A stretch of 40,938 nt of DNA from a virus: positions 1-40,938 of the IMG/VR virus record IMGVR_UViG_3300032268_000596; one strand, written 5' to 3'. The notes beneath the pieces are model-generated. The model was not told where the DNA came from and did not search any database. It was given only the letters and a program-made list of their open reading frames with translations. The stretch's first letter is position 1, and each line of letters starts with the position of its first letter. Below, in pieces: positions 1 to 32,230 of this stretch. Made by a program: the position numbers and the translations under genes.

Positions 1-537
1 CTGAACTTCTGGTGGACTATGGATAGTCTTACCGAACCCCAATGGGAAGAAGTTGCTCGCCGTTATGATGCCCTAGACCCTGCCGCCAGGGATGCCGCCA
101 GGGATGCCGCCTGGGATGCCGCCGGGTCTGCCGCCAGGGATGCCGCCAGGGATGCCGCCTGGGATGCCGCCAGATATGCCGCCAGGTATGCCGCCTGGTA
201 TGCCGCCAGGAATGCCGCCTGGGATGCCGCCTGGGATGCCGCCAGGAATGCCGCCTGGAATGCCGCCAGGGATGCCGCCTGGTATGCCGCCGGGTATGCC
301 ACTTATGAACTAATTGGTATGCATACTCTATTGAATGACGGTAAGGACTTATTGTTTGTTCCTCTTTTTGACTTTACCGGAAACTATGAACTTTAAAGTC
401 TTGATGTAAAAGAGATTGAAACAAGAATCCAACGAATCAATGATTTCATTGGACCTAAAGTTGAGGTGGAGAATGATGTCAATATGAGGGCAGAAGTCCT
501 TCAGTGTTTTATTGAAGACATTGAACTATTTGATTAA
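1..537 (+). pseudogene. Ala-rich tetrapeptide-repeat protein, interrupted by an in-frame TAA
   Basis: The frame is open from base 1 with a candidate ATG at 19. Residues about 22-95 are a tandem array of four-residue units of the type A-A-(R/W)-(D/N/Y), encoded by a 12-base DNA repeat (gatgccgccagg-like) at about 76-300. A conserved-looking tail follows and reaches TAA at 394-396. The same frame then stays open from 397 to TAA at 535-537 and reads like protein (LDVKEIETRIQRINDFIG...), without a good start codon. I read this as one gene split by a nonsense change; two separate genes is the alternative. Function unknown; the repeat would form an amphipathic helix. The 5' end may lie outside the window. 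Confidence 0.55.
76..300 (+). repeat. 12-bp tandem repeat array inside the Ala-rich gene
   Basis: About 18 tandem 12-base units with core gatgccgcc followed by agg, tgg or ggg; some units have tat or aat in place of gat. The array keeps all three + frames and one - frame open, which explains the overlapping Pro/Gly/Met and Ala/Ser open frames here; these are shadows. Confidence 0.9.
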
Positions 538-3870: not shown

Positions 3871-6365
3871 GATTTTATACAAACGTAAAGCAATTAGGAA
3901 ACTACATCTATGTTCGGGGTTATGAAGATGGAGTTCCTTTTAGAGACCGAGTTGAATATAACCCAACCCTATTTTTAAAAAGTCCAGAACCATCAAAATA
4001 TAAAACCCTACAAGGTGATTATCTAAAGCCAGTTCAACCTGGAACAATCAGAGACACCAGGGAGTTTATAAACAAGTATAAAGACATTGACAACTTCTCA
4101 ATCTATGGAGATATTTCTCCGGTAAATCAGTATATCTCGGATAACTATCCCGAAGAGAATATTTATTTTGATGTCAAAAAGATGAAAATCTACATTATTG
4201 ACATTGAGACAACTTCAACTTATGGCTTTCCCAATGTTGAGCAAGTAAGAGAAGAAGTTCTTCTTATTACGATTCAAGACTTTGCAACAAAGAAAACCTA
4301 TACTTGGGGTAGCCGCCCGTTTGCAGAAAAAGTAGAAAACAACATCTATTTTGAATGTAAAAATGAGATGGACTTGTTAGAGCAGTTTATTCAATTCTGG
4401 GAATCTGATTATCCAGATATTGTCTCGGGGTTCAATTGTGAGTTCTTTGATATGCCGTATCTTCTTCGTAGGATTGCGGTTACTTTATCTGAGGCTGATG
4501 CAAAAAGACTATCAGTATGGAAGTACATTAGAGAGCGTAAAGTAAGAGTTGAAAAAAGTAATAGAGAAGAATATGTTTATGAGATTTCAGGAGTTTCTTG
4601 TCTTGACTTCCTTGCTCTTTTTAAAAAGTTCAGTAACAGAAAATTGGAGAATAACCGACTGGATACTGTGGCCCAGGAAGTTCTAGGAGATTCAAAACTA
4701 GACCACTCACAGTATGAGACTTTTGCAGATTTCTATACTCAAGATTTTACAACATTCACTCTTTATAACATTAAAGACTGTGAACTTGTAAGTAGACTGG
4801 AAGAAAAAGAGGGTCTTATTGGTCTTGCTCTTACGATGGCATTTGATACTAGGGTAAACTTTGAAGATGTTTTCTTTCAAAGTAGAATGTGGGATTCAAT
4901 TATCTACAACTACCTCAGAAGGGAAAACATCTGTATTCCACAAAGGCAAGAGATAACACTAAAGACTGAGAAGTTCAAGGGAGCATATGTAAAAGAAACT
5001 CAAGTTGGTAAGTTTAATTATGTTGTAACATTTGACATACGTTCTCTATATCCATCAATTATTCGTACTTTTAATATTAGTCCAGAGACTCTTGTAAAAC
5101 AACGAAATCCTAATGTTTCAGTAGACGCTATTCTTTCTGAAGAGTTTACAAATGATACGGATTATAGTGTATGCGCCAATGGTTCAATGTATGATAGGTC
5201 TCAACAAGGTTTTCTACCAAAGCTGATGGAAAAACTTTACAATGAGCGGGTTATCTATAAAAATAAGATGTTAGCATCTGCGGCTGAATATGAGAAGAAT
5301 CCATCGGAAGAAGTTAAGAAAAATATTACGGTTTATAACAACTATCAGAACGTAAAGAAGACTGTTCTTAACTCTGCATTTGGAACTCTTGGTTGTGAGT
5401 ATTTTAGATATTATGACCTAAGAAACGCCGAGGCAATCACTTATACGGGTCAGGCAATTATTCGCCATTTAGAGCAAAGAATGAATGCTTTTCTTAATAA
5501 AATTGCCGGAACTGAGAACTTTGACTTTGCTATTGCAATGGATACTGATTCTATTATGATTAACTTTGAACCAATTATTCAGCGTATTTTTGGTGACAAA
5601 GAAGTTGAGATGGTAAAAATCATTGACTTTATGGATAAAGTTTGCTCCACTAAAGTTCAAGAGTGCATTGACAATTCATTTAATGAAATTTGCGATGTTC
5701 TTGGTTCTTTTGACCGACAACTCAGTATGAAGAGGGAAAAACTCTGTTCATCTGGTCTATGGGTCGCCAAGAAGAACTACATAATGAACGTGTGGGACAA
5801 TGAGGGTGTAAGATACGCTGAACCAAAGATTGTTATCTCTGGAATCTCTGCAATTAAGTCCTCAACCCCCGCATATTGTAGAAACAGAATCCGAGAAGGA
5901 ATCAAACTGATTCTTAATGGAGACAATAAAGATATCATTGATTTTATCAGTCATTGCAAAAAAGAGTTTTTCACTCTTACTCCAGAAGAAGTATCATTTC
6001 CAAAAAGCGTCAGTAACGTCAATAAATATGCAGCGCCTAGTAATTCTTACATAAAAGGAACACCCATTCAATCTAGGGCCTCACTGATTTATAATAGACA
6101 CATCAAAGAGAAGAAACTAGAAATGAAATACCCTTTGATTAAAGATGGAGAAAAGATTAAATTCTGCTATCTCAAAATGCCAAACCCAATCAATGAAAAT
6201 GCATTTGCATTCATTCAAAGATTTCCAACCGAGTTGGGTTTGAATAAATTTGTAGACTATAATACACAGTTTGAAAAGACATTCATTTCACCTCTTCGGG
6301 CTATCTTGGATGTTATCGGTTGGAATACAGTAGAAACAAGTTCACTAGACTTTTTATTTGGATGA
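3867..6365 (+). CDS. 43: DNA polymerase, family B (gp43)
   Basis: Replicative polymerase with 3'-5' proofreading, 832 residues. Exonuclease motifs: Exo I D112-I-E114, Exo II GFNCEFFDMPYL at 188-199, Exo III Y300-N-I-K-D304. Polymerase motifs: A at 390-397 (DIRSLYPS), B at about 498-508 (KTVLNSAFGTL), C D559-T-D-S562, and the KKxY-type loop VAKKNY. Uninterrupted by intein or intron. About 65 residues shorter than T4 gp43, mainly between motifs. Acts with gp44/62, gp41 and UvsX encoded around it. Confidence 0.98.
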   Translation: MRFYTNVKQLGNYIYVRGYEDGVPFRDRVEYNPTLFLKSPEPSKYKTLQGDYLKPVQPGTIRDTREFINKYKDIDNFSIYGDISPVNQYISDNYPEENIYFDVKKMKIYIIDIETTSTYGFPNVEQVREEVLLITIQDFATKKTYTWGSRPFAEKVENNIYFECKNEMDLLEQFIQFWESDYPDIVSGFNCEFFDMPYLLRRIAVTLSEADAKRLSVWKYIRERKVRVEKSNREEYVYEISGVSCLDFLALFKKFSNRKLENNRLDTVAQEVLGDSKLDHSQYETFADFYTQDFTTFTLYNIKDCELVSRLEEKEGLIGLALTMAFDTRVNFEDVFFQSRMWDSIIYNYLRRENICIPQRQEITLKTEKFKGAYVKETQVGKFNYVVTFDIRSLYPSIIRTFNISPETLVKQRNPNVSVDAILSEEFTNDTDYSVCANGSMYDRSQQGFLPKLMEKLYNERVIYKNKMLASAAEYEKNPSEEVKKNITVYNNYQNVKKTVLNSAFGTLGCEYFRYYDLRNAEAITYTGQAIIRHLEQRMNAFLNKIAGTENFDFAIAMDTDSIMINFEPIIQRIFGDKEVEMVKIIDFMDKVCSTKVQECIDNSFNEICDVLGSFDRQLSMKREKLCSSGLWVAKKNYIMNVWDNEGVRYAEPKIVISGISAIKSSTPAYCRNRIREGIKLILNGDNKDIIDFISHCKKEFFTLTPEEVSFPKSVSNVNKYAAPSNSYIKGTPIQSRASLIYNRHIKEKKLEMKYPLIKDGEKIKFCYLKMPNPINENAFAFIQRFPTELGLNKFVDYNTQFEKTFISPLRAILDVIGWNTVETSSLDFLFG

Positions 6366-16900: not shown

Positions 16901-17875
16901 ATGGATGCCATAGACGACTATTATATTAATCTCTTATCATCTCGCTTAGAAAAATTTAAGAAGATAAAACCTGGCCTCTACAATTGTAGATGTAATATCT
17001 GTGGAGATTCCCAGAAAAATAAAACAAAAGCCCGTGGTTACTTCTATGAAAAAAAGAATAACACGAACTATAAGTGTCACAACTGCGGCATAAACGTTTC
17101 TCTTAATAATTATCTAAAGCAAGTAGATCCAACACTTCACGAAGAATATTCTTTAGCGAAATATAAAAGGGGTCTAACTGGAAAGAATTTTGTAACAACT
17201 GCACCTAAGTTTGATAATCCTAAGCCCGTTTTTAGAGCAAGACTAAACCTGCCGAGAGCATCCGAAGGAGAAACAACGAGGAATTATCTTGAATCTAGAA
17301 ACATAGATGCCACAAAGTTCTATTATGCCAAGGAGTTTAAAAGGTGGGTGAATACTTTAAAGCCAACATTTAATAAACGCGCCCTGTATTATGAAGAGGA
17401 AAGACTAATCATTCCTCTTTATTATCACAAACAATTAATCGGTTTTCAGGGAAGAACTTTGGGCAAATCTACAATTAAATATATCACGATTATGCTAGAT
17501 GAAAATGCCCCAAAGGTATACAATTATGATAGCATAGATAATAATGAACCGGTTTACATTCTTGAGGGTCCGTTTGATTCCTATTTTATCAGTAACTCCA
17601 TTGCGATGTGTGGAGCGGATGTAGACCTAGCAAAACTAAATATCAAACAACCAATTTACATTTACGATAACGAACCCAGAAATAAAGAGATTGTTGATAG
17701 AATGGAAAGAACCATTGCTCAAAATCTACCATTAGTAATCTGGCCCAAAAACGTAAAACAAAAGGACGTTAATCTAATGGTTCTTTCTGGTTTGGATGTA
17801 AACCAGATAATTAAAAAAAACATCTATACTGGTCTTTTAGCAAATCTCAACTTTAACGAATGGAAGAAAAAATGA
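16901..17875 (+). CDS. 61: DNA primase (gp61)
   Basis: 324 residues. Makes RNA primers for lagging-strand synthesis with the gp41 helicase. Zinc-binding domain C31-x2-C34 and C59-x2-C62, with the CGDSQKNK loop; TOPRIM domain from about 215 with LEGPFDS at 221-227 and IYDNE at 254-257. Follows the coiled-coil gene without a gap and overlaps nrdA by ATGA. Confidence 0.93.
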   Translation: MDAIDDYYINLLSSRLEKFKKIKPGLYNCRCNICGDSQKNKTKARGYFYEKKNNTNYKCHNCGINVSLNNYLKQVDPTLHEEYSLAKYKRGLTGKNFVTTAPKFDNPKPVFRARLNLPRASEGETTRNYLESRNIDATKFYYAKEFKRWVNTLKPTFNKRALYYEEERLIIPLYYHKQLIGFQGRTLGKSTIKYITIMLDENAPKVYNYDSIDNNEPVYILEGPFDSYFISNSIAMCGADVDLAKLNIKQPIYIYDNEPRNKEIVDRMERTIAQNLPLVIWPKNVKQKDVNLMVLSGLDVNQIIKKNIYTGLLANLNFNEWKKK

Positions 17876-20670
17876 GCAATGGTATTACTGTAGTTAAGCG
17901 CAATGGCAATGTTGAGCCATTGATGCTAGAAAAAATTCACGATATGGTGAATTGTGCTTGCGTTGGTTTGGCCAATGTATCTGCCTCGCAGATTGAAATG
18001 AACTCTGGTCTTCAGTTTTATGCTGGAATTACAACTGATGAAATTCAGCAGATTCTTGTTAAGTCTGCATCGGATTTAATCAGTTTGGACCATCCAAATT
18101 ATCAATATGTTGCGGCTAGATTGCTTCTTTTTTCTATTCGTAAGCGTTTATACGGTGGCCGTATTGATATGCCACATCTTGAAGAACATATTAATTTTTG
18201 CATTGCTCAAGAATATTATGATGCAGATATTTACACCAAATATTCAAAAGAAGAAATTGATACCGTAAATTCTTTCATTGACCACGACCGAGATTTTCTT
18301 TTCACCTATGCTGGTCTTAAGCAGGCTGAAGATAAATATCTTGTTCAAGACCGCGATACTAAACAGGTCTTCGAGACGCCTCAGTTTATGTATATTATGA
18401 TTGCTCTTACAATCTTTGCAAATTATTCAAAAGATGTAAGGCTATCATATGTTAAGCGTTATTATGAGGTTGTAAGTAAGCATAAGATTAATCTGCCCAC
18501 ACCCGTAATGGCAAGTGTCAGAACGCCAGATAAGCAGGCTGCATCTTGTTGTCTCATTGATGTAGATGATACACTTGACAGCATCATTGCATCTGATGGA
18601 GCAATGATGAAATACGTTTCAGGTGGAGCCGGTGTTGGTATTGACGTTAGTAAAATTCGTGGCATTAGGAGTAAAATTCGTAAGGGTAAAGTTATTTCAT
18701 CGGGTTTGATTCCATATCTTAAAAAGTTTCAGGCGTCTCTTGAATCTTGCCATCAAGGTGGCGTAAGAAAAGGAAGTATGACGGCATACGTTAGCATTTG
18801 GCATCAAGAGATTGAAGATATTATTGTCCTTAAGAATAATAAGGGCAATGATGAAAACCGAGTAAGAAATATTGATTATGCAATCAAGATTTCAAAAATA
18901 TTCTACGAACGTTATATCCAAGACGGAGAAATTACTCTATTTTCTCCTCATCACGCTCCCAATCTAGAAGACTCGTTTGGAACTGAACGTTTTGATGACC
19001 TTTATGTTCAGTATGAGAATGATCCGACTATTCCTAAGCGTAAAGTAAAAGCCCAGGAACTTATTCTGAATATTCTCAAAGAAAGAAGCGAAACTGGTCG
19101 CATTTACATTATGAATATTGACCATTGCAATACTCATAGTTCTTTTAAAGACCATATTAGTATGAGCAACCTCTGTGTTGCTGGTGATACTAAAATTAGA
19201 ATTAAGTATCCAGTATCCATTGGTTCCTGTTTGGAACTATGCAGTGCCGAAATTGATATTCAAGAGTTGGAGGATTATTTTCTCGATAGAGAAAGAGAGG
19301 TTTCATTTCGCAAAGAAAGCGATGTTCCTAAAATTCAAGTTCTTTCTTACGATACTGAAAAAGGTGAAAGAGTTTGGAGTAATATTACTGCTTTTGCTCA
19401 AACATCTCCCAGCGCGAAAGTAATGTCTCTTAATGATGGTCGGGTTATTTTAACACCTGAGCATAAAGTCTTCACAGAAAATCGTGGGTATGTTGAGGCA
19501 AAAGATATTCAGGGGACAGATCAGCTAGTTGTTTTATGTGATGACGGAATTAAAAAAGTTAAAAATAAAAATAGAACTATTGAATACCTAGAGGAAGAAA
19601 TCCCAGTCTATGACATTACAGTAGAGGGAACGCATAACTTCTTTGCAAATGGAATTTTGGTTCATAACTGTGTCGAGGTAACTTTGCCGGTTCATCCTAT
19701 TCAAAGCCTTGAAGATGAACTGGCAGAAATTTCTTTGTGTATTCTCGGAGGACTGAATGTTGGAACAATCAAGAACGATAAGGAACTAGAGGAGTGCTGT
19801 GAATTGATTGTAAGGGCTCTTGAAGAACTGATTGATTGGCAAGATTATCTTGTGAAGGCTGCAGAAATTTCAACAAGGGCAAGAAGGTCTCTAGGTATTG
19901 GTATTATGGGTCTGGCTCACTATCTTGCTAAACTTGGCCAATCCTATCACGAACAATCGGCCTGGGATAGTTGCCATAGACTTGGTGAAAGTATTCAATA
20001 CTTCCTTCTAAGGGCATCTAATAAGATTGCACAAGAACGAGGTCACTGTGATTACTTTGGTAGAACGAAGTATGCAGATGGTATTCTTCCTATTGATACT
20101 TACAAGAAAGATGTTGATGAAATTTGTTCGGTTCCACTACAGCACGATTGGGAACAACTGCGGCAAGACATTCTACAATATGGCTTGAGACATTCTACTC
20201 TCAGTTGTGCGATGCCCGGTGAATCATCAAGCCTGATGTTAAATGCCCCAAATGGTATTGAAATGCCGAGAGAACATCTATCGGTTAAGCGTAGACTTAA
20301 GCAAATTGTTCCACAGTATTCATCTCTAAAGAACAATTATAGTCTACTCTGGGATGCCCCGTCTAATATTGGTTATCTTAACATTGTTGCGGTCCTTCAA
20401 AAGTTTATTGACCAATCAATCAGTGCCAATACTGCATACAATCCAGAGATGTTCCCTGATAAGGAAGTCCCAATGAGTCTTATTCTCGGCGAAGTTCTTT
20501 ATGCATACAAGATGGGGGTCAAGACGCTGTATTATCATAATACATACGATAGTAAGAAGGATTCTGATTCTGCTGAAGTTGAAATTGAACAGGTAAACGA
20601 ACTAGAAAATTTGATTAATACTATTGAAACAAGTGAAGGAGAAGATTATTGTGAAGGATGTAGCATCTGA
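17872..20670 (+). CDS. nrdA: Ribonucleotide reductase class Ia large subunit NrdA, with mini-intein
   Basis: 932-residue precursor from ATG 17872 (GGAAG upstream; ATGA overlap with gp61); about 767 residues after removal of the 165-residue intein. Makes dNDPs with NrdB. Active-site cysteines visible: CC at 226-227 (one is E. coli Cys225), radical Cys600 (Cys439), Cys623 (Cys462), and the C-terminal redox pair CEGC. N and E flanking the radical Cys are kept (SNL / CVE). The N-terminal ATP cone looks reduced. nrdB follows at once. Confidence 0.96.
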   Translation: MSNGITVVKRNGNVEPLMLEKIHDMVNCACVGLANVSASQIEMNSGLQFYAGITTDEIQQILVKSASDLISLDHPNYQYVAARLLLFSIRKRLYGGRIDMPHLEEHINFCIAQEYYDADIYTKYSKEEIDTVNSFIDHDRDFLFTYAGLKQAEDKYLVQDRDTKQVFETPQFMYIMIALTIFANYSKDVRLSYVKRYYEVVSKHKINLPTPVMASVRTPDKQAASCCLIDVDDTLDSIIASDGAMMKYVSGGAGVGIDVSKIRGIRSKIRKGKVISSGLIPYLKKFQASLESCHQGGVRKGSMTAYVSIWHQEIEDIIVLKNNKGNDENRVRNIDYAIKISKIFYERYIQDGEITLFSPHHAPNLEDSFGTERFDDLYVQYENDPTIPKRKVKAQELILNILKERSETGRIYIMNIDHCNTHSSFKDHISMSNLCVAGDTKIRIKYPVSIGSCLELCSAEIDIQELEDYFLDREREVSFRKESDVPKIQVLSYDTEKGERVWSNITAFAQTSPSAKVMSLNDGRVILTPEHKVFTENRGYVEAKDIQGTDQLVVLCDDGIKKVKNKNRTIEYLEEEIPVYDITVEGTHNFFANGILVHNCVEVTLPVHPIQSLEDELAEISLCILGGLNVGTIKNDKELEECCELIVRALEELIDWQDYLVKAAEISTRARRSLGIGIMGLAHYLAKLGQSYHEQSAWDSCHRLGESIQYFLLRASNKIAQERGHCDYFGRTKYADGILPIDTYKKDVDEICSVPLQHDWEQLRQDILQYGLRHSTLSCAMPGESSSLMLNAPNGIEMPREHLSVKRRLKQIVPQYSSLKNNYSLLWDAPSNIGYLNIVAVLQKFIDQSISANTAYNPEMFPDKEVPMSLILGEVLYAYKMGVKTLYYHNTYDSKKDSDSAEVEIEQVNELENLINTIETSEGEDYCEGCSI
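19174..19668 (+). mobile_element. Mini-intein in NrdA at the thiyl-radical cysteine
   Basis: 165 residues. Starts C1-VAGDTKI (block A), block B TPEH at 94-97, ends ...VYDITVEGTHNFFANGILVHN with C-extein Cys+1. Blocks N and C are complete for self-splicing; there is no room for, or trace of, a LAGLIDADG or HNH endonuclease, so it cannot spread by itself. Insertion splits SNL from CVE in the NrdA active site. Confidence 0.93.
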
Positions 20671-29090: not shown

Positions 29091-29935
29091 ATGGACTGCT
29101 CTTGTAGAACTTTAACACATAAACACCACATTATTCCCAGATACAAAGGTGGAACCGACGACCCCGAAAATCTAGTAGAGGTCACGGTAACACAACACGC
29201 AATGTATCATTATTGCAATTATCAACTTTGGGGAAATGTTGAAGATTATGTCGCTTGGAGAGGATTGAGTGGGCAAGTAAGTAAAGAAGAATTTTTATTA
29301 GAAAAATTCATAATATTTGGTAAAAAGGGATATCAAGGTCTATATAAAAAAATAAAAAATGACCCACAATTAGCAAAAGAGATAAAACAAAAACAAGTTG
29401 AAAGTTGGAATAAAAATAGGGAAAGGAATCTTGTAAAAATAAGATTGACACAGCCAAAAGCGGTTGAGGCAGCAAGAAGTCCCAAATCAAAAGAAAAGAA
29501 AAGAAAAATAAAAAATTTAAGGAAATAAAACATCAACAAGGCGAAAAGAATTCACAATACGGTAAAATGTGGATACATAACCTATTGTTAAGAAAAAATG
29601 TTAGAATTAATAAAGGTGACCCAATTCCTAATGGCTGGAATCCTGGAAGAATTATGAATTTTGACTCTTATTTTAAAAAGCAAGAAAAAAGACGAGAGAG
29701 GGCTGAAAAAGTGAAGGAAAAAAGAATAATATTAAGAGAACAAAAAATAAAATTTTATACCGAATGGTATGAGATTTATAAAAAAGTAGAATTTAAAGTA
29801 TTTTGTGAAATAACGGGTTACAATAAATCTCAACAGAATCTTTGCAGTATGTTTAAAGAATTTGTTGAATCTTATTCTCCCAAAGCCAAAAATGGACATT
29901 CTTTGCCACTTGCTAAACCGTCCACTACCCCTTGA
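29091..29935 (+). pseudogene. HNH homing endonuclease, frameshifted
   Basis: AAGGAG before ATG 29091. HNH core KHHIIPRYKGGTDDPENLVEV with HAMYHYCNYQLWG after it (residues 11-48). The first frame stops at 29528; the second, open to 29935, contains QYGKMWIHNLLLRKN...GWNPGR, typical of homing-endonuclease C-terminal parts, and a basic helix. One more A in the six-A run at 29510-29515 would join them into about 281 residues. Homing of this kind of gene spreads it to intergenic sites. Confidence 0.8.
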
Positions 29936-29960
29936 CAAAATCGCTTAAATAGCCTAAGGT
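29932..29960 (+). promoter_or_regulatory. Promoter TTGACA-N17-TAAGGT for the rRNA-like RNA
   Basis: Perfect -35 TTGACA at 29932-29937 and TAAGGT at 29955-29960, 17-base spacer. The only consensus -35 noticed at the promoters examined. A TTAAATA late-type motif overlaps at 29945. Start predicted near 29967. Confidence 0.6.
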
Positions 29961-29966
29961 AATCAA

Positions 29967-30151
29967 GGTTTCAAAAACAACGGGGCCATAACAGCGAAAG
30001 GTAGGCTTAGAAGCAGCCATCCTTTAAAGAGTAGAAAATGCACCAAGACTGCGAAATGCTTAGTAATGTCGGGCCTTAGAGGTGGCATATGTAAGTGATG
30101 TGGCGAGGAAAAATGCAGTTTCTTTTAGCGTAATAGCACATCGCTGTCAAC
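29967..30151 (+). ncRNA. RNA resembling the 23S rRNA GTPase-associated centre (L11-binding domain) with an insertion
   Basis: 30007-30032 is a 26-base stretch nearly identical to bacterial 23S helices 43/44 (loop UUAGAAGC, then CAGCCAUC and UUUAAAGAGU), and 30127-30137 is the helix-44 loop AGCGUAAUAGC. Closing helix 42 is kept by different bases: ACAGCG (29991-29996) with CGCUGU (30142-30147). A 94-base insertion (30033-30126) splits helix 44 and is closed by AGAAA/UUUCU and UGCA/UGCA. Bases equivalent to E. coli A1067 (30009) and A1095 (30132) are present. It has a promoter, no open frame, and tRNA genes downstream. No function is known; binding ribosomal protein L11 or translational GTPases is the obvious hypothesis. 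Confidence 0.8.
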
Positions 30152-30158
30152 CTAAATA
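30152..30158 (+). promoter_or_regulatory. Late-type promoter CTAAATA in the loop of a hairpin
   Basis: CTAAATA forms the whole loop between GTCAAC (30146-30151) and GTTGAC (30159-30164); 10 bases before tRNA-Pro. The hairpin shares bases with helix 42 of the rRNA-like RNA. Confidence 0.5.
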
Positions 30159-30168
30159 GTTGACACAT

Positions 30169-30240
30169 CCAGGAATAAGTCAGCGGTAGACGGCACCGTT
30201 TGGGGCGGTGAAGGCGTTGGTTCGATCCCAACTTTCTGGA
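30169..30240 (+). tRNA. tRNA-Pro (UGG)
   Basis: Acceptor CCAGGAA/TTTCTGG, discriminator A; D-stem GTC/GAC; anticodon stem CACCG/CGGTG with loop TTTGGGG (anticodon TGG); T-arm GTTGG-TTCGATC-CCAAC. 72 bases, no encoded CCA. Confidence 0.93.
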
Positions 30241-30243
30241 TTT

Positions 30244-30316
30244 GGTCAATTCGTCTAGTGGTCTAGGACACCTACCTGTCTAGTAGGTTACAGGAGTTCA
30301 AATCTCCTATTGACTG
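30244..30316 (+). tRNA. tRNA-Asp (GUC)
   Basis: Acceptor GGTCAAT/ATTGACT, discriminator G; anticodon stem CCTAC/GTAGG with loop CTGTCTA (anticodon GTC); T-arm AGGAG-TTCAAAT-CTCCT. Three bases after tRNA-Pro, so probably one precursor. Confidence 0.93.
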
Positions 30317-30338
30317 TTGGCTAAAAGCCAAATTCTTT
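30317..30338 (+). terminator. Probable terminator after the tRNAs
   Basis: TTGGC (30317-30321), loop TAAAA, GCCAA (30327-30331), then ATTCTTT. Confidence 0.55.
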
Positions 30339-31087: not shown

Positions 31088-32230
31088 ATGAATTTACTCA
31101 GAGGCATCACTGACATTTTTCCCGCAATTACACCTGAAGAATTTTTTGCATATCCAAAAAGAGTGAAGTTAGGATTTGACCCAACATCAAACTTTCTACA
31201 CCTGGGTCACTCTATTCTTCTTCGTAAACTTCAGGCATTTCAAAATCAAGGTCACTCGCCAGTAATAATTATTGGAGATTTTACTGCAAGAATTGGTGAC
31301 CCATCTGGTAAATCTAACACGAGAAAACAGCTTACAAAAGAGGAAGTAGAAGCAAATATTGATAACTTTATTCAAACAGTATCAAGATTTATTGACCTAG
31401 AAAAATCTGAATTAGTTTTCAATTCTCATCATTTAGAAACACTGAATCTTACCGAAATTATTAAACTTCAGTCTTTAATGACTGTTCAACAACTTATTGC
31501 CAAACAGGACTTTTCTAATAGAATTGAATCTCAAACTCCTATTGGTTTACACGAATTTATGTACCCCTTACTTCAGGGATATGATAGTCTTCAAGTACAA
31601 TCAGACATCGAATTGGGTGGAACAGACCAAAAATTCAATGTTGGTTTGGGTAGGGATGTTCAGAAACATTTTGGTTCTCAAACTCAACAAGTGGGTATGT
31701 TAATGCCAATTCTTGTTGGAACTGACGGAACCCAAAAGATGTCTAAAAGTCTTAATAATGCAATTGGAATTGATGAGCATCCAATTCAAATGTTCTCTAA
31801 ACTTGAAAAAATTCCTGACCATTTAGTTGATGACTTTATCACTCTTTTAACTGATTGTGAAATAAGTCAATTTTCTAGTAATCCGAGAGAGAAGCAGAAA
31901 CAAATGGCATTTGAGGTCGTCTCCATTTTTCACGGCAGTCGTAATGCAGTTAAGGCAATGAAGGATGCAGAATCTCTTGTTTTTGCCGGTTCAACTGATG
32001 CAGAAGTTCCTGAAGTTTCAATTAAAGATATTGAGTTTCCTTGCCGTTTAGTAAATGTGCTCAAAACCTTAAATTTGGTAGAAAGTACAAGTGATGCTAG
32101 ACGTAAAGTAAAATCTGGTTCTGTTAAATTAAATGGAGTTAAAATTGTAGACGAAAATCATATGATTGATGATACGATTTCCGATCAAATTGTGCAATTA
32201 TCAAAAAGTCAGTTTTTTAAACTCGTGTAG
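31088..32230 (+). CDS. tyrS: Tyrosyl-tRNA synthetase
   Basis: 380 residues, class Ic synthetase. HIGH-type motif HLGHS at 38-42, GDFTARIGDPSGK at 63-75, the Tyr-site region QGYDSLQVQSDIELGGTDQKFN at about 163-184, KMSKS at 217-221, and a C-terminal S4 RNA-binding domain from about 315 to 375. Complete though slightly short of most bacterial enzymes. It charges tRNA-Tyr; no tRNA-Tyr gene is in the window. Own early promoter. Confidence 0.96.
   Translation: MNLLRGITDIFPAITPEEFFAYPKRVKLGFDPTSNFLHLGHSILLRKLQAFQNQGHSPVIIIGDFTARIGDPSGKSNTRKQLTKEEVEANIDNFIQTVSRFIDLEKSELVFNSHHLETLNLTEIIKLQSLMTVQQLIAKQDFSNRIESQTPIGLHEFMYPLLQGYDSLQVQSDIELGGTDQKFNVGLGRDVQKHFGSQTQQVGMLMPILVGTDGTQKMSKSLNNAIGIDEHPIQMFSKLEKIPDHLVDDFITLLTDCEISQFSSNPREKQKQMAFEVVSIFHGSRNAVKAMKDAESLVFAGSTDAEVPEVSIKDIEFPCRLVNVLKTLNLVESTSDARRKVKSGSVKLNGVKIVDENHMIDDTISDQIVQLSKSQFFKLV

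Follow-up and report, generated by a model that had tools for sequence, protein, structure and literature searches.

The GTPase-associated centre (GAC) of bacterial 23S rRNA is the binding site of ribosomal protein L11 and a contact site for EF-G, EF-Tu and IF2; relC mutations map to the L11 gene. In E. coli, the GAC occupies positions 1051-1108 (within Rfam family RF02541) and comprises helices 42-44 with the A1067 and A1095 loops, the tertiary pair 1082-1086, U1060 and A1088. Copies of rRNA protein-binding sites outside the ribosome are known from r-protein leaders (L20, S15, S4 and others; PMC7247131). The non-ribosomal OLE RNA has been proposed to sequester the ribosomal protein RpsU, and GOLLD and ROOL are large structured non-coding RNAs of phages and prophages, often found near tRNA islands, whose function is unknown (PMC12286853).

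Here we describe a phage-encoded RNA that resembles the GAC in its predicted fold and is not a 23S gene, a GOLLD, ROOL or OLE RNA (Rfam) or an r-protein leader. It shares the features named above with the 23S GAC, but helix 44 is broken by 28-350 nt plus a UUUR linker, position 1101 is A and not U as in E. coli, and helix 42 is a freely variable stem. The phage RNA is far shorter than GOLLD and ROOL and, unlike them, includes an rRNA centre. A parallel can be drawn with OLE, for which sequestration of an r-protein has been proposed, although its ligand site and its carriers differ. The r-protein leaders act in cis in r-protein mRNAs, whereas the element studied here precedes tRNAs, and no r-protein gene was found to recur beside the element.

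Results

The window, i.e. the whole stretch of 40,938 nucleotides that was analyzed (IMG/VR record IMGVR_UViG_3300032268_000596), is part of the genome of a T4-like phage; the DNA polymerase of this phage shares about 51% identity with those of cyanophages. Positions 29990-30148 of its plus strand correspond to E. coli 23S rRNA 1048-1111, the GAC, plus an insert (numbering checked on rrlB). Read along the plus strand, the order is ACAGCGA-AAGGUA-GGCUUAGAAGCAGCC-AUCCUUUAAAGAGU, followed by a 95-nt insert and then GCGUAAUAGCAC-A-UCGCUGU. The element and its neighbours are composed as follows:

29990-30148, plus strand: whole GAC-like RNA element, equivalent to E. coli 23S 1048-1111 with the 95-nt insert (covariance model R1 built without the window; homology to record L144 from 29989)
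29991-29997, plus strand: helix 42, 5' strand (1049-1055), ACAGCGA (complementary to 30141-30147, 7 bp; register across 94 clusters)
29999-30023, plus strand: helix 43 (1057-1081) with the A1067 loop, the A1067 equivalent being 30009 (Rfam LSU match; covarying pairs)
30024-30032, plus strand: equivalent of 1082-1090, with the tertiary pair 1082-1086, A1088 and the 5' strand of helix 44 (1082-1086 covariation; pair 1090-1101)
30033-30123, plus strand: inserted domain closed by stem P1, AGAAA 30033-30037 with UUUCU 30119-30123 (P1 pairs in 94 clusters; consensus fold of the window's insert type)
30124-30127, plus strand: linker UUUR, here UUUA, from the insert to G1091 (present in all selected clusters, but part of the selection pattern)
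30128-30139, plus strand: helix 44, 3' part (1091-1102) with the A1095 loop, the A1095 equivalent being 30132 (23S identity; composition over 94 clusters)
30141-30147, plus strand: helix 42, 3' strand (1104-1110), UCGCUGU (same basis as the 5' strand)
30168-30241, plus strand: tRNA-Pro (UGG), a neighbour outside the RNA (ARAGORN)
30243-30317, plus strand: tRNA-Asp (GUC), a neighbour (ARAGORN)

Positions 30004-30032 are thus equivalent to E. coli 1062-1090, with identity letter for letter over 1062-1079, and 30128-30139 to 1091-1102; the insert enters helix 44 between the equivalents of 1090 and 1091. A preliminary description of this DNA had recognized the match to helices 43 and 44 with both loop adenines, a helix 42 kept by different base pairs, an A in place of U1061 and tRNA genes downstream. 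All of this holds: the U1061 equivalent is A at 30003, helix 42 forms over 7 bp, both tRNAs are found by ARAGORN, and the 3' part of the match lies at 30128-30139. The insertion described there as 94 bases is indeed closed and lies in helix 44, but its length is 95 nt (30033-30127, including the UUUA linker). As stated, the segment carries no reading frame: no ORF of at least 60 aa overlaps the element, and the longest of any kind (57 aa) lies on the minus strand.

A TTGACA promoter and a start of the element at 29932 had also been proposed, and neither is supported. The TTGACA motif shares bases with the stop codon that ends the upstream ORF, a promoter scan finds no promoter there, and the motif is absent from the close relative L144. 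Homology to this 243-kb record sets in at precisely 29989 and extends beyond the element, whereas the upstream DNA is unrelated; TTGACA at 29932 is therefore not a shared promoter, and the element starts at about 29989. L144 has kept the GAC-like RNA, although the tRNA-Pro next to it is truncated there and escapes detection. In the window, the GAC-like RNA is probably co-transcribed with tRNA-Pro (UGG). Directly after the element, at 30145-30165 on the plus strand, a short UGUCAA/UUGACA hairpin would compete with the last pairs of helix 42. Its sequence is mostly retained in L144, and it might act as a switch or as a signal for processing. Elsewhere on the plus strand of the window, a tyrosyl-tRNA synthetase-like protein is encoded near the phage tRNA genes (31088-32230), and a ribonucleotide reductase large subunit contains an apparent intein splicing domain (17860-20670). 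The first 370 bases of the window match two regions of L144 in several overlapping blastn matches, which suggests a repeated sequence at 1-400 (plus strand).

When the whole window was compared with Rfam, only three tRNAs passed their gathering scores, and cmscan returned no match to GOLLD, ROOL or OLE in the window or in the region. The bacterial LSU model (LSU_rRNA_bacteria), proposed earlier as a check, does hit 29999-30045 with 23.9 bits and E = 1.9e-5 (446 bases), but stays below its gathering score of 50 because the match ends at the insert. This is its only match, and none of the remainder of 23S/LSU rRNA was found in the window. Thermodynamic folding gave no unusual stability for the element (z = -0.46 and -0.75), so that covariation and homology, rather than energy, carry the case for an RNA. 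A covariance model, R1, was built from eight phage elements with the window's insert type, leaving out the window and its near relative L144. R1 matched the window at 29990-30148 with 113.3 bits (E = 9.9e-24), the next best match reaching 8.2 bits, and E. coli rrlB at 1048-1111 with 45.6 bits (E = 4e-8); the E-values are rough. For 11 elements of the window's insert type, including the window, RNAalifold predicted 41 pairs, of which 26 show double compensatory changes.

Relatives were found by several routes. A blastn search of the region gave unannotated matches in Pseudomonas phages pf16 and UNO-G1W1, both within tRNA arrays; in pf16 the element occupies KU873925 29415-29605 on the minus strand. 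The 17-mer GGCTTAGAAGCAGCCAT occurs in at least 119 stretches of IMG/VR. In most of these, the match is followed by GAGU, an insert, UUUR and GCGUARNAGCAC, and then by a strand that can pair with the sequence 5' of the match to form helix 42. Gapped-pattern searches yielded additional elements. Selection was based on the two loops, GAGU and the UUUR linker, and helix 42 was left out of it. The resulting set of at least 123 distinct elements, grouped at 80% identity into 94 clusters, was drawn from contigs of viruses, from named phage isolates and from a small number of bacterial assemblies. Among the named carriers are Cronobacter phage GAP32, Pectobacterium phage CBB, Serratia phage BF, Xanthomonas phages XacN1 and XbC2, several Erwinia phages, Pseudomonas phages Milchi and Astolliot, and Aeromonas phage 4_4572. 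Three contigs from bacterial assemblies also appear to carry the element. They are assigned to Flintibacter muris DSM 110149, to a Pricia MAG and to a Parcubacteria MAG; in the Flintibacter case it is surrounded by phage-like genes. Paenibacillus phage Pd_22F (L153) was excluded, as its match resembles ordinary 23S. By these sequence comparisons the GAC-like RNA is a widespread family carried by dozens of distantly related phages. It also looks like an undescribed one: in line with the preliminary description, no such phage RNA was found in Rfam 15 or in the open-access papers that the search covered.

With R1, one copy was found in 46 of 50 carrier records and two copies in 2, and the element was missed in 2. 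One phage record (L043) holds a tandem pair of GAC-like elements with different inserts on the plus strand (5125-5361 and 5442-5707), and record G020 (the record of L054) likewise has two adjacent matches. Another copy (L013, 3710-3775, plus strand), located upstream of a tRNA-like sequence, apparently lacks the helix-44 insert and is possibly an insert-free natural version.

Across the 94 clusters, the six pairs of helix 42 in the E. coli register are standard in 500 of 564 cases. Shuffled partners gave a mean of 302 and a maximum of 332, and slid partners 180-260; GC, CG, AT and TA all occur. Within helix 43, pairs 1057-1081, 1058-1080 and 1062-1076 covary. The tertiary pair 1082-1086 is TA in 44 clusters, CG in 22, AT in 8 and GC in 1, so that 75 of 94 are standard and 19 are not, and U1060 and A1088 are present in 94/94. 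Since 1082-1086 covaries and U1060 and A1088 are fixed, it is the three-dimensional fold that is kept and not the helices alone. The pair 1090-1101, A-U in E. coli, is U-A in 90/94 clusters; 90/94 also have G-C at 1087-1102.

The loops of 1067 and 1095 are nearly fixed (1067 is A in 91/94 and G in 3/94). This near-invariance is partly imposed, because letters of the loops formed part of most searches. Among the 18 elements retrieved without any helix 43 letters, however, position 1067 is A (15) or G (3), position 1070 is A (13) or G (5), and the remainder of 1062-1076 is almost fixed, indicating that loop conservation is real, though not absolute. Stem P1 starts directly after 1090, and pairs one to three of this stem are kept in 92, 93 and 85 of the 94 clusters, respectively; all five pairs sum to 368/470, against a shuffle mean of 227 and a maximum of 256. 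The last base of the UUUR linker, which was part of the selection pattern, is G in 84 clusters and A in 10. Kinship between clusters inflates the pair counts somewhat, but hardly to the observed degree. The comparison of clusters shows that helices 42-44, the GAC tertiary contacts and the two factor-facing loops are under selection, and it bears out the earlier suggestion of selected structure.

The inserts range from 28 to 350 nt across the family. They fall into several classes that differ from each other and have diverged beyond alignment. We suspected that the insert might be a second piece of 23S rRNA (about 2371-2393, from GUGCGAAA...GUGAU), but the similarity of the inserts to 23S is no greater than that of shuffled inserts, and this candidate was rejected. 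Beside the usual helix-44 insert, some elements carry an extra insert of 6-91 nt at the bulged base 1078/1079 of helix 43 (L039, L042, L061, L079, L086, L096, L123, L125, L169, L170, L186, L118).

No element was detected, at this sensitivity, in 13 polymerase relatives of the window phage, several of which are incomplete contigs; the element therefore appears dispensable in close lineages. A tRNA lies within 300 nt of 49/94 elements, compared to about 30 expected at random for the same loci, and tRNAs are absent from the examined DNA around 26/94. The search for a partner protein beside the elements revealed no widely recurrent family, and the top recurrent neighbours looked like HNH/GIY homing endonucleases (assigned from sequence). 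Neither an L11 gene nor genes with a RelA/SpoT domain were found in the 50 carrier records. An L12 C-terminal domain was found above the cut-off in 2/50 carriers and weakly in 5 more, against 0/14 controls, a difference that is not significant. In loci L190-L196 (records G039, G020, G041, G011, G036, G043 and G017), the whole or half of this domain is fused to unrelated N-terminal parts. Other neighbours are found at individual elements: in XacN1 an RNA ligase, 18 nt upstream (L151 1328-1978), a kinase-phosphatase-RNA ligase downstream in L008 and L163 (L163 2522-4714, the Flintibacter contig), and related TROVE/Ro60-like proteins of 393-481 aa (assigned from sequence) downstream in three clusters (L127, L011, L111).

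Discussion

Based on these comparisons, we propose that the phage-encoded, free-standing GAC copy may act as a decoy for host GAC ligands, L11 first, a reading to which we give slightly less than an even chance. The GAC-like RNA would be made together with the phage tRNAs and would bind host GAC ligands in trans, ribosomal protein L11 foremost and perhaps GTPases. Ribosomes partly short of L11 would then resemble those of relC strains, with poor RelA activation as the most plausible outcome, and the weakened RelA response would keep the host metabolically active through infection. The inserted domain could serve as a stabiliser or as a phage-specific attachment. L11 binding is suggested by conservation, and several findings favour the proposal as a whole: the L11- and factor-facing loops stay near the rRNA sequence even where they were not selected for, whereas the inserts diverge; R1 connects the window, other phages and the E. 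coli GAC; helix 42 covaries well above the shuffle maximum; and the tertiary pair covaries around a fixed U1060 and A1088. With a universal host protein as the partner, the lack of a conserved partner gene is what one would expect. Thiostrepton bound in the L11-GAC cleft reduces RelA-dependent pppGpp synthesis (PMC9998046), and (p)ppGpp alters the success of phage infection in P. putida (PMC12814882). However, the latter effect goes both ways, helping some phages and harming others (PMC12814882). Ribosomes are abundant and hold L11 tightly, so that titration would need much RNA or would mainly hit newly made L11. Moreover, the helix-44 insert might hinder binding of L11 or factors, and the 13 polymerase relatives are without a detected element. 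The wider claim, that large phages of many lineages use a free GAC copy to bind L11 and translational GTPases and to uncouple RelA, which would make it an RNA-based inhibitor of the stringent response by rRNA mimicry, is more doubtful, and we put it forward as a tentative extension.

Other explanations have to be weighed against a decoy. That the match is a chimeric assembly, host 23S contamination or chance has a negligible probability. Positions 30004-30032 are near the bacterial consensus and at least one phage record (L153) contains what appears to be ordinary 23S, but other parts of 23S are absent, the insert is not 23S-like, the element is single-copy in most carrier records, and it is present in complete named phages such as GAP32, CBB, XacN1, pf16 and Astolliot. 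The covarying homologues in 94 clusters and the 113.3-bit R1 match rule this explanation out, in agreement with the preliminary description, which had argued against chance or contamination. Alternatively, the RNA could be a scaffold that gathers L11, L12 and translational GTPases (EF-Tu, EF-G, IF2), or else tRNA, on behalf of the phage, e.g. beside the phage tRNA pool, with the insert as a docking arm. The association with tRNA arrays and the L12 domains, two clear and five weak, fit such a role. Nevertheless, we regard it as unlikely, as the L12 signal does not differ significantly from the controls, 26 loci have no tRNA in the examined DNA, and the insert architecture is not common across the family.

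We consider it less likely still that the RNA is a counter-defence bait absorbing a host factor directed against the ribosomal GAC, be it a nuclease, a modifying enzyme or a toxin. The patchy, accessory distribution of the element would suit this role, as would the RNA-repair genes that adjoin a few elements (XacN1; L008/L163) and the TROVE proteins in 3 clusters, yet such genes occur in only about 5 of 94 clusters. To our knowledge, no anti-phage system targets the GAC, which counts against a bait, and one RNA facing thousands of ribosomes would be weak unless the enzyme were tightly inhibited. Similarly low is the probability that the GAC fold is merely a stable base for a variable insert with the real function, no rRNA ligand being bound. 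The inserts are structured, show covariation of their own and form several classes, but they share no part, the natural copy L013 seems insert-free, and unpaired loop positions stay near the rRNA sequence in the 94 clusters, beyond what the fold alone should need.

If the GAC-like RNA does act as a decoy, phages would have taken over a functional centre of the ribosome in the form of a separate RNA that has been selected across many lineages. It would be a natural tool to separate the function of L11 and the GTPases from the ribosome and a possible means of viral control over translation or the starvation alarm. Isolates such as pf16 and GAP32 make this reading testable, and it would assign a function to unannotated gaps in the genomes of cultured large phages.
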